A stretch of 59,654 nucleotides of DNA, from NCBI GenBank assembly GCA_026988575.1, contig JALSKZ010000032.1, forward strand, positions 1-59,654, read 5' to 3'. The position numbers and the translations under genes were made by a program. The notes under the pieces were generated by a model that was given only the letters and a program-made list of their open reading frames with translations, did no database searches and was not told where the DNA came from. This DNA comes from Thermodesulfobacteriales bacterium (GTDB lineage: Bacteria > Desulfobacterota > Thermodesulfobacteria > Thermodesulfobacteriales > Thermodesulfatatoraceae). Of this stretch, positions 2,588 through 9,297 are shown piece after piece; positions within the stretch are counted from its first letter, which is position 1, and every line of letters begins with the position of its first letter.

Positions 2588-5500
2588 ATGGCGGACTTTG
2601 TTCACCTCCATTTACATACCGAGTGGAGTTTACTTGATGGGGCCATCAGGCTACGGGATCTTTTTCCGCAGGCTCAAGAATATGGGTATCAGGCCTTGGC
2701 CATTACCGATCATGGTACGTTGTACGGACTTATTCACTTTTATGAACAGGCCTTGGCCTCGGGTATCAAGCCTATTTTGGGGTGTGAGGTATATGTGGCC
2801 CCAGGGTCTCGTTATGATAGAGTGGCCAAGAGTGCTCATGAAGCAGGGTTTCACCTGGTGTTGCTATGCGAAAACGAGAAAGGCTATAAAAATCTCTTAC
2901 GCCTGGTTACCTTGGCCCATTTTGAGGGCTTTTACTGGAAGCCCCGGGTAGATAAAGAATTGTTGGCCCAATATAACGAGGGGCTTATTGCCCTTTCGGC
3001 CTGTTTGCACGGTGAGGTACCGGCGGCCATATTGAGAGGCCAAATGGACAAGGCCCGGGCCCTGGCCGAAGAATACGCCCGCATTTTTCCAGGACGCTTT
3101 TATCTTGAGCTTCAAGAAAATGATCTTCCAGAGCAGAAAGAAGTAAATCAAGCCTTGGTAGAGTTGGCCAGGGAATTGGGACTTCCCTTGGTGGCCACCA
3201 ATGACTGTCATTATCTACGTGCCGAAGATACCAAAGTACATGATGTGCTTCTTTGTATACAGACCAACAAGACAGTCCATGACGAGAACCGTTTGCGTTT
3301 TTCCACCGACAAGCTTTATTTTGCCTCTCCTCAGGAGATGGTAGAACGTTTTGCCTGGTGCCCAGAGGCCATAGAAAATACACTAGAGATTGCTAAAAGG
3401 TGTAACGTTAAAATTGAGCTGGGCCAAAACCATTTTCCCAAATATCCCATTGAGCCAGGCCGCACCTACGAAGAGGTCTTTGAGGAAAAGGCCCGGGCTG
3501 GTTTTGAACGTCGGTTGGCCGAACTAAAGAAATTTCCTGGGCTTGCTGCCTCTGAAGATGAATATCGCCAGCGCCTGGAATACGAACTGGAGATTATCAA
3601 AAATAAGGGCTTTGCCAGTTATTTTTTAGTGGTCGCCGACTTTATTTCCTGGGCCAAAAAACAAAAGATTCCCGTGGGCCCTGGCCGTGGTTCAGCCGCG
3701 GGCTCTCTTGTGGCCTACGCCATGGGTATCACCAACTTAGATCCCATCCGTTATGGTCTTCTCTTTGAGAGATTCTTAAATGTAGAGCGAAAAAGCCTTC
3801 CGGATATCGATGTAGACTTCTGCATGCGGCGCCGAGAAGAAGTGATCCACTACGTGCGTCAGCGTTATGGAGGAGAAGAATACGTGGCCCAGATTGCTAC
3901 TTTTGGCCAGATGAAGGCCCGCGCCGTGGTCCGTGATGTGGGGCGGGCTTTGGGCTTTTCTTATCCAGAGGTCGATAAAATTGCCAAACTTATCCCCGAG
4001 ACGGTTTCTACTTTAGATAAAGCCCTGGTTGAAGAACCCCGCCTGCGGGAATTAGTAGAAAGAGATCAGCGTATAGCTGAATTAATAGCCATCGCCAGGG
4101 CCCTAGAGGGCTTGCCCCGACATTCTTCTACCCATGCTGCCGGGGTGGTAATAGCTGACGCCCCCCTTACTCAATATTGCCCCCTTATGAAGGGTGACGC
4201 CAACGAAATAGTTACCCAATTTGATATGAAGGCCGTAGAACGAGTTGGCCTCATAAAATTTGACTTTTTGGGTCTCAAGACCTTGACCATTATTGACCAT
4301 ACCCTGCGTCTGATTAAAAAGCATCACGGCGTAGAACTTGACTTGGAAAATCTACCTCTCGATGACGAAAAGACGTATGCGCTTTTGCGGAAAGGAGATA
4401 CCGACGGGGTGTTCCAGTTAGAATCTTCCGGGATGAAAGATCTGCTCATTCGTATGCAACCCTCGGAATTCAGTGACCTTATTGCTATTTTGGCCCTTTA
4501 CCGTCCTGGGCCCCTGGAATCGGGTATGGTTGACCAATTCATAAAGGCCAAACACGGAGAAGTAGAAGTCTCCTACCTTTTGCCCGAGCTAGAACCCATT
4601 CTCAAAGAGACCTACGGCGTAATCGTTTATCAGGAACAGGTCATGAAAATTGCCCAGGCCCTAGCTGGTTATAGTCTGGGAGAAGCCGATATCCTGCGTC
4701 GGGCCATGGGCAAAAAGAAACCAGAAGTCATGGCCGCCCAAAGAGAGCGTTTCGTATCGGGAGCAGTCAAACGCGGCATTCCCCAAGATAAGGCAGAGCA
4801 GATCTTCGATTTGATGGCCAAATTTGCCCGCTACGGTTTCAATAAAAGTCATTCTACAGCCTACGCCTTGGTGGCTTACCAAACGGCCTATTTAAAGGCC
4901 CATTATCCTTTGTGTTTCATGACGGCCCTCCTCTCCTACGAAATGGAAAAGGTAGACCAAGTCGTCAAATACGTACACGTGTGTAGGCACATGGGTATTG
5001 ATATCTTGCCCCCAGACGTGAACGAAAGTGATATAGCCTTTACCATTACCGGGGATAAGATCCGTTTTGGCCTGGCCGCGGTAAAAAACGTGGGCGAAGG
5101 GGCCATAGAAGAAATATTAAAGGCGCGCCGAGAAGGGGGGCCTTTTAAGTCCCTAGAAGACTTTTGTCTGCGCGTAGACCTGAAAAAAGTAAACCGCAGA
5201 GTCATAGAAGCCCTCATAAAGAGCGGGGCCATGGATTCTTTGGGCGCTACCAGGGCCTCGCTTATCCAGGTGTTAGATGAAATGCTCGATTGGGTACAAA
5301 GCCGTCGCCGGGATCGTGAAAGGGGCCAGGCCTCTATCTTTGATGTGGTAGTCCAAAACACTCCTGCCTCAAGTCCCGTACAGATTCCTGATCTACCCGA
5401 ATGGTCAACCACCTTAAAACTGGCTTTTGAAAAGGAGGCCTTGGGTTTTTATATAAGCGGTCACCCCCTGGAGCCATACAAAAAGTGGCTTGCTTACCTA

Positions 5501-6146: not shown

Positions 6147-6179
6147 AGCCTACGTCCTAAAAGGGTTAGGAGGTTTGGT

Positions 6180-7445
6180 GTGGGTTATGAATCCCTTTGG
6201 CAAAAATTAGGTCTAGATCTAGAGGCCCACGAGGGCCTACTAAATGGTCTTGGCAAGGTCTACGAACAGGTCTTTTTGGCGCAGAAAAATAGGCCTCAGG
6301 CCATGGAATACTTTGATCAGGTAGTGGGAAGTATTCATGGAGCGCGGGTTGAAGAGCTCTTTAAGGCCAAGGAAGAGTCTCGTCTGGTGGTAGGTACCTT
6401 TTGCGTCTTTGTTCCAGAAGAAATTGTATGGGCGGTAAACGGCATATGTGTGGGGCTTTGTGCTGGTGCCGAAGTAGGTTTTGAGCAAGCTGAAGAATTA
6501 TTACCCCGCAATCTCTGTGCCCTTATTAAGGCCTTTTTTGGTTTTAAGCTGGCGCGGGTATGTCCGTATGTGGAGATCTGCGACTTTTTGGTGGGAGAGA
6601 CCACTTGTGACGGCAAAAAGAAGGCCTACGAGATATTTAATTCATTAAAAAAGACCTATGTAATGCATGTGCCGCAAAAGAAAGATGAGGAAAGCTTAAA
6701 GTTGTGGCTAAATGAGGTAAGGCGTTTCAAGGAAGAAATAGAAAGGGCTTCGGGTAGAGAAATTTCTGTAGCCGAACTAAAAGAGGCCATTGAGCTTATC
6801 AATCGCCGCAGAGAGGCCTTAAATCGTCTGAATGAGCTGCGTCGCGCTGATCCGCCTCCTATCTCTGGTTTAGATACTTTGCTCATCAACCAAATCGCCT
6901 TTTACGATGATCCGGTACGCTTTACCACTAAGGTGAATGAATTATGTAGCGAGTTAGAAGAGCGGGTCAAAAAAGGCCAGGGAGTCTGTCCGAAGGGCAC
7001 ACCTAGAATTATTGTTTCTGGTTGTCCTATGGCCATCCCCAACTGGAAGATACCTTATATCATAGAATCTGCAGGGGCCGTAATTGTGGGCGAAGAATCC
7101 TGTGTAGGTCGTCGTAATACTAGAAATCTCGTCGAGGTTTCTTCCTCCACCGTAGATGGCCTCGTAGAAAATATAGCCAATAGATACATGGGAATAGATT
7201 GTGCTATTTTTACGCCTAATGTAGAGCGAGCCGAAAACCTGAAAGAGATGGTTTCAGAATTGTCTGCTCAAGGGGTAGTTCATTATAGTCTGAAATTCTG
7301 TGACCCCTATACCATCGAAGTTCACCACATGGATAACGCGGTATCTTCCTTGGTGCCCACACTCAGAATCGAAACGGACTATAGTCAAGAAGATATGGAA
7401 CAATTACGTACTAGAATAGAGGCGTTTCTCGAACTATTGAAATGA
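6180..7445 (+). CDS. Double-cubane cluster protein (HgdB/BcrBC-like, 2-hydroxyacyl-CoA dehydratase superfamily)
   Basis: 421 residues. Related to the subunits of 2-hydroxyacyl-CoA dehydratases but with the features of double-cubane cluster proteins, a family in which an 8Fe-9S cluster carries out very low-potential reductions (acetylene reduction was shown for a Carboxydothermus member). Visible cysteines: C128 and C134 in CPYVEICDF, C143 in GETTCDG, C282 in SGCPM, C308 in GEESCVGRR; the SGCPM/EESC signature is typical of this subfamily. Start: GTG at 6180 has AGGAGG ending 6 bases upstream; a TTG at 6126 in the same frame has no ribosome-binding site. The stop overlaps the start of the activase gene (ATGA). 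The physiological substrate is unknown; no CoA-transferase or second dehydratase subunit is adjacent, which argues against classic hydroxyacyl-CoA dehydration. Confidence 0.8.
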   Translation: MGYESLWQKLGLDLEAHEGLLNGLGKVYEQVFLAQKNRPQAMEYFDQVVGSIHGARVEELFKAKEESRLVVGTFCVFVPEEIVWAVNGICVGLCAGAEVGFEQAEELLPRNLCALIKAFFGFKLARVCPYVEICDFLVGETTCDGKKKAYEIFNSLKKTYVMHVPQKKDEESLKLWLNEVRRFKEEIERASGREISVAELKEAIELINRRREALNRLNELRRADPPPISGLDTLLINQIAFYDDPVRFTTKVNELCSELEERVKKGQGVCPKGTPRIIVSGCPMAIPNWKIPYIIESAGAVIVGEESCVGRRNTRNLVEVSSSTVDGLVENIANRYMGIDCAIFTPNVERAENLKEMVSELSAQGVVHYSLKFCDPYTIEVHHMDNAVSSLVPTLRIETDYSQEDMEQLRTRIEAFLELLK

Positions 7446-8242
7446 TAATAGTCGGCATTGATATTGGTTCTCGTTCTATAAAAAGCGTGGTCTTAAAAGA
7501 CGGGGTCTTAGAGGCGACTACATGTATAGAGACTACGTATGAACCCAAAGAACAAATAAGGCAATTATTATCTGGTCTACAATACGATTGTTTAGTAGCC
7601 ACGGGTTACGGACGTTATTTGGTTCGTGACGACTTTGGGGCCGAAGTAATCACCGAAATCAAGGCCCATGCCTTGGGGGTGCGTTATTTCTTTCCAGAGG
7701 CGCGCACTATATTAGATATTGGGGGACAAGACACCAAGGCCATAGCCCTTTCTCCAGAAGGTACTGTGGTTCGGTTTGAGATGAATGATCGTTGTGCGGC
7801 AGGTACAGGTCGCTTCCTTGAGGTTATGGCCCGGGCCTTGGGGGTTGAGATTGCAGGACTTGCGGACTTGGCCTTGGCGTCCTCAGAGGCCGCACCCATT
7901 AGCTCTCTCTGTACGGTGTTTGCAGAAAGTGAGGTCATAGGCCTTATCAGCCGTGGTCAAAGGCGAGAGATCATTGCCAAGGGTATAATCCTTTCCATTG
8001 CCAAGCGATCTACGGCCCTGCTTAAGAGGGTAGGCCTTCAGGCCCCGGTAGTTTTCACCGGAGGCGTGGCCTTAAACAAGGCCCTAGTGGAGACCTTGGA
8101 GAGACTTTTAAATCTCTCTTTATGGGTCCCTAGAGAGCCCCAAATTACCGGAGCCCTTGGAGCGGCTTTATCAGTCTGGAACACCAGGGCCGGGTTAGGG
8201 AGCCGGTGCTCCCCCAGGGCTGCAAACCCTGAGGAGCCCTGA
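7442..8242 (+). CDS. Acyl-CoA dehydratase activase-type ATPase (BadF/BadG/BcrA/BcrD family), DCCP reductase
   Basis: 266 residues of the ASKHA-fold ATPase family that uses ATP hydrolysis and a bridging 4Fe-4S cluster to inject one electron into a partner such as HgdB or a double-cubane protein. Motifs: phosphate-1 loop GIDIGSRSIKS, DIGGQDTKAI, C118 in NDRCAAGTGRF and C157 in SSLCTVFAE (the two Cys that hold the dimer-bridging cluster), and the GGVALN adenosine motif. Start ATG overlaps the stop of the partner gene, so expression is coupled. The protein is expected to end soon after GALGAALSVWN; the last roughly 18 codons and the stop lie inside the selC-like tRNA gene, so the C-terminal tail is encoded by tRNA sequence. 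Confidence 0.88.
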   Translation: MIIVGIDIGSRSIKSVVLKDGVLEATTCIETTYEPKEQIRQLLSGLQYDCLVATGYGRYLVRDDFGAEVITEIKAHALGVRYFFPEARTILDIGGQDTKAIALSPEGTVVRFEMNDRCAAGTGRFLEVMARALGVEIAGLADLALASSEAAPISSLCTVFAESEVIGLISRGQRREIIAKGIILSIAKRSTALLKRVGLQAPVVFTGGVALNKALVETLERLLNLSLWVPREPQITGALGAALSVWNTRAGLGSRCSPRAANPEEP

Positions 8243-8280
8243 AAAAGGGACTTGGTTGGTTCAACTCCAACCCCGGCCTT
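8187..8280 (+). tRNA. tRNASec-shaped tRNA with GCA anticodon (selC*-like tRNA-Cys)
   Basis: Cloverleaf drawn by hand. Acceptor: 8188-8194 pairs with 8272-8278 (7 Watson-Crick pairs), with a possible eighth G-U pair 8187/8279. D arm: six-pair stem 8198-8203/8208-8213 closing a four-base CGGT loop, a hallmark of bacterial tRNASec. Anticodon stem CAGGG/CCCTG (8215-8219/8227-8231) with loop CTGCAAA; anticodon GCA at 8222-8224 reads UGC (Cys), not the UCA of selC. A long variable arm lies at 8232-8254 (stem 8237-8240/8246-8249, extendable with one bulge). T stem 8255-8259/8267-8271 with loop TTCAACT. The discriminator is T by either pairing, the CysRS identity base. CCA is not encoded, unlike the other two tRNAs here. 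Minor tRNA-Cys species mimicking tRNASec are known in deltaproteobacteria; this appears to be one, overlapping the activase CDS by 56 bases. Confidence 0.88.
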
Positions 8281-8283
8281 TAT

Positions 8284-9297
8284 TTACAAATAAATTATTT
8301 TTTCGCCGCTCAGGACAGCTATTTCACCCGGATATAATATAAGGGGTTTTACTTGTCGTTTAAGGGCCTCACGCTTAAATAACCGGGGAGGTGCATCAAT
8401 AGATTCATCCCCTAGGCGGTAGGCCCCCCAGTGGATAGGCAAAGTCCACCGGGCCCCTAACTCTTGGGCTACTAAGACTGCCTCTTGCGGGTTCATATGA
8501 AAGGGGGCCATGAGCCAGCGAGGCAAAAAGGCCCCGCAGGGGAGTAAAGCCAGATCAAAAGGGCCAAAATGGGCTCCTATTTCGCGAAAACCAAAGTAAT
8601 AGCCGGTATCACCCCCAAAAAATAGCTTAAATCCCGGGACTTCTACCAGATAGCCACACCACAGGGCCAGATTAGTATCCAGAAGGCCTCTTTTGGACCA
8701 GTGCTGTACAGGAAGGGCGATTATACGCACTCCGTGGATAATTTGTTCATCAAACCAGTCAAGCTCTAATATATTGTTTTTGCCCCAAAAATAGCGAGAC
8801 GTGCCCAGAGGTACGATTATTTTTGGGTCTCCCCTCAGGCGGGCAAGGGCTCGACGACTCAAATGGTCTCTGTGGGCATGGCTTATCAACACTAGGTCTG
8901 GGGGAGGAAGTCTTTCGGGGGAAATAGGGGGAGGGGTTAGGCGCTTTACTACACCAGCAATGTTTTCAAATATGGGATCAAAAAGGATGTTCTTACCCTC
9001 TAGACGAAGCCAAACCGTACCATGCCCAAGAAAGCTTACAAGTGGCCCCTCATGGGTGCCCAGGAGCTCCGGATCGGGCCTGTATACCGGAACAATGCTG
9101 CGTTGACGTTCGCGTACATGGGAGATCTTCCACTTGATAATTTCACGGAGCACAGGGGCCTCTTGAGACAACCAGGGATTGATAAAGCCCCGTCTAGTAT
9201 GGTGCCGACGGTCTTTTGCCAGCTCTAACAGACTATATTGGCCTGCGTTTATTACTTTTTTGGGACCGAAGTATTGATGGAAATATTTAATAGACAT
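8284..9297 (-). CDS. Metallo-beta-lactamase-fold hydrolase (UlaG/NAPE-PLD-like)
   Basis: 337 residues. The N-terminal part leads into a beta-lactamase-fold core that starts LVSFLGHGTVWLRLEG, with the metal site motif SHAHRDHLS in the middle and further His and Asp residues in LPVQHWSKRG, FFGGDTGYY and LPIHWGAYRLG. This arrangement is that of the MBL subgroup containing N-acyl-phosphatidylethanolamine phospholipase D and UlaG-like lactonases. There is no clear signal peptide, so it is probably cytoplasmic. It is a single gene with its own promoter and runs convergently into the selC-like tRNA, ending 3 bases away from it. The substrate cannot be predicted. Confidence 0.82.
   Translation of the reverse strand: MSIKYFHQYFGPKKVINAGQYSLLELAKDRRHHTRRGFINPWLSQEAPVLREIIKWKISHVRERQRSIVPVYRPDPELLGTHEGPLVSFLGHGTVWLRLEGKNILFDPIFENIAGVVKRLTPPPISPERLPPPDLVLISHAHRDHLSRRALARLRGDPKIIVPLGTSRYFWGKNNILELDWFDEQIIHGVRIIALPVQHWSKRGLLDTNLALWCGYLVEVPGFKLFFGGDTGYYFGFREIGAHFGPFDLALLPCGAFLPRWLMAPFHMNPQEAVLVAQELGARWTLPIHWGAYRLGDESIDAPPRLFKREALKRQVKPLILYPGEIAVLSGEKIIYL

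Follow-up and report, generated by a model that had tools for sequence, protein, structure and literature searches.

We know of no physiological substrate assigned to the double-cubane-cluster proteins (DCCPs), and why cells have tRNAs that place Cys at Sec codons has, to our knowledge, only been guessed at. One such group is the selC* tRNA-Cys, also named tRNA-ReC, reportedly described in Mukai 2017 and Vargas-Rodriguez 2018. The class is covered by two reviews (PMC7609411 and PMC11415595). In D. nigrificans, and as a report for D. nigrificans only, the ReC tRNA brings Cys to UGA through SelB (PMC11415595). On the protein side, one paper describes DCCP as "provisionally linked to selenium metabolism" (PMC10418091), and another lists an activase and a 2-hydroxyglutaryl-CoA dehydratase subunit in its YedE/YedF association table (PMC5322559). 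DCCP's provisional selenium link and the selC*/ReC class are thus already known separately. We found no earlier report of a mutual linkage between the two in the literature, which was covered in part, so that a prior mention is possible.

Here, we describe a locus in which a DCCP gene, its activase and a ReC-type tRNA stand together. It lies in a stretch of 59,654 nucleotides (the window) from a heat-loving anaerobic bacterium of the Thermodesulfobacteriales. An earlier note, made from the letters of this DNA, had read the three genes as one unit and had offered cysteine supply, UGA recoding or sensing as speculative reasons for the association.

Results

The protein genes of the unit

The features of the unit are collected in Table 1. 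The activase start overlaps the DCCP stop by ATGA and the tRNA begins inside the second gene, just as the earlier note had it.

Table 1. Coordinates of the DCCP-activase-tRNA unit, numbered from the first base of the window.
Feature	Position	Strand	Remarks
Ribosome-binding site AGGAGG	6168..6173	+	just upstream of the GTG start
Double-cubane-cluster protein (DCCP) gene	6180..7445	+	GTG start, TGA 7443-7445, 421 aa
DCCP reductase/activase (BcrAD/BadFG ATPase family)	7442..8242	+	ATG 7442, TGA 8240-8242, 266 aa
Overlap of activase 3' end (last codons and stop) and tRNA	8188..8242	+	first 55 nt of the tRNA
selC*/ReC-type tRNA-Cys, anticodon GCA, U73	8188..8279	+	CCA not encoded

The first protein passes the curated equivalog model NF040772 (473.5 bits, cut-off 350), and its closest solved relatives are PDB 7yyl and 6eno, with homology over the full length (E ~1e-148). 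A reading as a subunit of a 2-hydroxyacyl-CoA dehydratase or benzoyl-CoA reductase was rejected, as the corresponding models scored far below their cut-offs (HadC 112 vs 700, BzdN 67 vs 454) and the unit holds a single HGD-D gene where a second subunit would be required. By sequence, the protein belongs to the DCCP family, as proposed before, and an [8Fe-9S] cluster and ATP-dependent low-potential reduction are predicted for it. The SGCPM/EESC signature from which this had first been argued stands in part: EESC is conserved in the crystallised DCCP, but the Cys of SGCPM is not (aligned tgTPq), so SGCPM is not a diagnostic signature. The second protein passes TIGR00241 (246.9 bits, cut-off 125.4), matches PDB 4eht and 7yyl_E, and has both cluster cysteines (NDRCAAGTG and SSLCTVFAE).

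Identity and structure of the tRNA

ARAGORN places a tRNA-Cys with anticodon GCA at 8187-8280, and the Rfam tRNA-Sec model RF01852 matches the same bases (61.7 bits, cut-off 47, E 4e-10), which bears out the description as a selC-like tRNA-Cys. Relatives that encode the CCA (G127, G077 and G132) anchor the 3' end and fix U73 at 8279, giving the mature boundaries of Table 1; for this reason, 8187 as base 1, which would give an 8/5 branch with G1.U72, was rejected. The D stem of 6 bp with its 4-nt loop and the long variable arm are both as in tRNA-Sec, and the acceptor/T branch pairs 7/5. The cloverleaf covaries across 12 relatives, with 98.2% of cells paired and a score of 0.361 vs 0.126 in shuffles, which puts the fold beyond chance, and the Sec-like D stem is conserved among these relatives. 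Two close relatives (G127 and G077) pair 8/5, and three tRNAs from other lineages (L061, L062 and L065) are readable as 8/4 with a bulged A.

A true tRNA-Sec identity was rejected, as such a tRNA would have UCA and G73 in place of the GCA and U73 found here, and the real selC, with anticodon UCA, lies elsewhere in the source genome (C1:253-345). From its sequence, the tRNA is a member of the known selC*/ReC tRNA-Cys class, with a Sec-like body, GCA, U73 and a true tRNA-Sec in the same genome, although it does not have the 8/4 branch with the A51a bulge. Two other ReC-type tRNAs (L204:7632-7721 and L185:4146-4235; G222) carry C before the GCA anticodon instead of the usual U33.

Could this be simply an extra tRNA-Cys that works on EF-Tu, has retained a Sec-like body, and through its place in the operon ties Cys decoding to the expression of a Cys-rich Fe-S protein? 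The anticodon and U73 fit such a tRNA, and the 7/5 branch is that of canonical tRNAs, so that ordinary EF-Tu could carry it and recognition by SelB is not assured. Also in its favor, the DCCP gene encodes 13 cysteines, 11 of them by TGT. However, an ordinary tRNA-Cys with encoded CCA is already present in the genome (on C76), the Sec-like D stem has been conserved, and in other lineages tRNAs of this type track SelB, and selenium genes in loci that have no DCCP (L181, L199, L203 and L207). We therefore regard this explanation as unlikely.

Recoding of the DCCP gene was a further suggestion of the earlier note. The window DCCP has no in-frame TGA, and no in-frame stop or UGA occurs in DCCP genes among the matches listed from the order and from 247 genomes of the phylum; DCCP itself is, thus, not a recoding target in these matches.

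Overlap of the activase and the tRNA

Since the final codons of the activase and its stop lie within the tRNA sequence, a cut by RNase P at the tRNA would deprive the activase message of its stop codon. There is no terminator-like site directly before the tRNA, and together with the overlap this suggests that DCCP, activase and tRNA are co-transcribed. A metallo-beta-lactamase-fold gene (8284-9297, minus strand) converges on the tRNA, its stop ~5 nt from the tRNA end.

The same arrangement could also point to a tRNA-shaped cis element in the 3'-terminal part of the activase mRNA, where cutting by RNase P or binding of SelB or CysRS would set activase expression by selenium or cysteine supply. 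The overlap and the missing terminator-like site would suit such an element, and in G138 (L192) the activase ORF likewise runs into the tRNA. On the other hand, the tRNA precedes DCCP in four genomes of the order (G018, G023, G029 and G032) and in other cases is encoded on the opposite strand or follows different genes, which means that no constant cis geometry has been maintained; moreover, several relatives encode the CCA, as expected of a working tRNA. A cis-regulatory role is, in our judgement, very improbable.

Selenium genes of the source genome

The source genome has one SelB, and hence no second SelB dedicated to the tRNA. Its SelD has one in-frame TGA and so contains Sec, and its YedF lies next to a gene resembling a cysteine desulfurase; a search for YedE in this genome found none. 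Within the window, no selenium genes lie near the unit, which stands alone there. In the order (39 SelD matches), SelD is of the Sec type, or unreadable at the start region, with or without the tRNA. A SelD target for UGA decoding is therefore consistent with the data but not diagnostic, and SelD provides no discriminator.

Linkage within the order

We surveyed 41 genomes of the order, screening for the tRNA with RF01852 at E<=1e-10 and with model R1 on DCCP loci. By these screens, six of the 41 genomes have the tRNA and in five (G000, G018, G023, G029 and G032) it adjoins DCCP-activase, a count biased towards linkage because RF01852 at this threshold missed two linked copies (G018 and G032) and may have missed unlinked ones too. 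DCCP is present in all six tRNA-bearing genomes compared with 10 of the 35 others (p 0.002). The link that the neighbourhood comparison was meant to examine is, thus, real, and it recurs in several other lineages.

The earlier note would have abandoned the link if relatives had the tRNA next to unrelated genes and the DCCP pair without it. Half of this was found: by the screens used, the tRNA is absent from 10 of the 16 DCCP genomes of the order, and G004 has DCCP and tRNA apart. Yet DCCP without the tRNA often adjoins SelD or other selenium genes. By matched coordinates, DCCP lies ~390 bp after SelD in G011, G012, G013, G015 (where the DCCP match is truncated), G016 and G024, and Thermodesulfobacterium thermophilum (L100) has SelD, DCCP, activase, a YedE-like transporter, a Se/S carrier (Se_S_carrier) and a Carb_kinase-like gene together. 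Altogether, 11 of the 16 DCCP genes of the order adjoin SelD or the tRNA. Because of these neighbours, selenium metabolism emerges as the common factor, and cysteine supply to a Cys-ligated cluster protein, as first imagined, is not supported.

Linkage in wider surveys

A protein-only scan of named genomes yielded 47 DCCP loci. With our own similarity thresholds, 12 of these have a selenium gene no more than 5 kb away, two of them (L095 and L098) on the weak evidence of a cysteine-desulfurase-like gene only; the other 35 have none. This is well above a rough expectation of 3-5%, which derives from gene counts and is not a measured background. Examples of neighbourhoods from the wider surveys are as follows. 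L061 has YedE, Se_S_carrier, DCCP, an FmdE-like gene, a second DCCP, activase, tRNA and SelB, and G084 is alike, with YedE, Se_S_carrier, two DCCPs, activase, tRNA and SelB. L065 has the order DCCP-activase-tRNA-SelB. In L067 and L079 the tRNA (in L079 with SelB) is divergent from DCCP-activase-SelD-YedF-cysteine desulfurase. L078 has a true tRNA-Sec, DCCP, activase, SelA and SelB, L080 has DCCP, activase, YedF and SelD, and G097 repeats the DCCP-activase-tRNA arrangement of the window. Among 14 control genomes, DCCP, selC and SelD occur together only in E. coli, where the DCCP/activase pair is yjiM/yjiL, and in M. jannaschii.

Several further observations came from these loci. The Se/S carrier and YedE are regularly joined by a protein that resembles Carb_kinase/NAD(P)H-hydrate dehydratase (L061:3624-4736, L100:10016-10861 and others), whose gene is a candidate selenium gene; the FmdE-domain protein of L061 (6283-7104) is flanked by the two DCCP genes of its selenium operon. 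Between the true tRNA-Sec and DCCP of L078, a second tRNA-like fold (4798-4866; R1 25.7 bits, E 0.04) has a Sec-like D arm and a T arm and lacks a proper anticodon loop. A canonical tRNA-Cys(GCA) lies ~0.2 kb downstream of a Methanosaeta DCCP (L099:7029-7100), a single case that may be due to chance.

We also approached the linkage from the tRNA, running a tRNA covariance model on the 247 phylum genomes and examining 40 matches with their surroundings; these matches were taken because they scored best, came second in their genome or lay close to a DCCP, and they are not a strictly random sample. DCCP, activase or selenium genes lie near 25 of 33 ReC-type tRNAs compared with none of seven true selC controls (p 3e-4), in two-by-two counts that, like those below and in the order, ignore shared ancestry. 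With SelB left out, whose linkage is already published, 18 of the 33 are still linked (p 0.011). For DCCP or activase only, the figure is 14 of 33 (p 0.075 against the seven controls), which is not significant alone. Coordinates give a sharper contrast: at least 14 ReC tRNAs lie within ~12 kb of DCCP on the same contig, and among the matches listed, compared by eye between two tables, no canonical-type tRNA does so, the nearest being a true selC at 13 kb (G084). No SelB gene was found beside window-type tRNAs. Applied to Bacillota, the model returned mainly true selC, and these data were left out of the statistics; the one clear ReC tRNA there (L264) is not accompanied by a selenium gene within 1.5 kb on either side.

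Could the pair and the tRNA have traveled together, by descent or by transfer of a selenium island, without any joint role? Four of the five linked genomes of the order belong to one genus (g7), and transfer of whole selenium traits has been proposed (PMC5322559). Against this, there are at least four distinct arrangements in several lineages (tRNA after the activase, before DCCP, divergent, or between DCCP and SelB), which imply repeated association. Linkage without function is, in our view, quite improbable.

Discussion

Our results favor selenium over cysteine supply as the reason for the DCCP-tRNA link. Our preferred explanation, which we hold to be somewhat more likely than not, is that DCCP, activase and tRNA together form a small module for selenium limitation, in which DCCP would mobilize selenium and the Cys-tRNA would fill Sec codons. 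DCCP with its ATP-driven activase would act as a low-potential reductase and in this way release selenium for use, for instance by bringing an oxidized or organic selenium compound closer to the selenide used by SelD; selenium as the substrate is proposed here from the gene neighbourhood. The tRNA would receive Cys from CysRS and, together with SelB, insert it at Sec (UGA) codons during shortages of Sec-tRNA; one possible target is the active-site UGA of this organism's SelD. Delivery of a 7/5 tRNA by SelB and decoding of UGA in this organism are inferred by analogy with D. nigrificans. Against the module speak the 35 of 47 DCCP loci with no selenium gene within 5 kb, the lack of selenium genes in the window and of YedE in the genome, and the absence of SelB beside window-type tRNAs. 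We propose that, because both activities would be useful under the same condition, DCCP-activase and tRNA share a transcription unit.

A more specific version, which we put forward tentatively and think rather less probable, is that DCCP serves specifically to mobilize selenium by reduction and forms, together with the ReC tRNA, one Sec/Cys switch. DCCP would supply Sec synthesis, and the tRNA, by inserting Cys, would allow selenoproteins to be made until selenium becomes available. If true, such a switch would give DCCP a physiological role and programmed Cys insertion at UGA a regulatory setting. Given the recurrent association with SelD, SelB, YedE, YedF and the Se/S carrier, the roles of DCCP and of the tRNA can both be addressed through one condition, selenium supply, in culturable Thermodesulfobacteria.

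Among known systems, the Carboxydothermus DCCP (PDB 6eno and 7yyl) belongs to the same equivalog family and also has an activase; the window DCCP differs in sharing a unit with a tRNA and in having relatives whose genomic context points to selenium. The window tRNA resembles the selC*/ReC class in its tRNA-Sec-like body, its Cys identity and its occurrence in an anaerobe with a true tRNA-Sec, and Thermodesulfobacteria are among the phyla reported for that class. On the other hand, the class is described as 8/4, whereas the window tRNA is 7/5 without the bulge, and its neighbours are DCCP and activase rather than selB* or cysS*. Finally, the YedE/YedF/DUF3343 neighbourhoods (PMC5322559) and the type 1 mlp clusters (PMC10418091) likewise contain DCCP/activase-type genes among selenium genes, but the accessible parts of these two papers do not mention a Cys-tRNA there, and the window unit, with its tRNA, stands apart from any such cluster.
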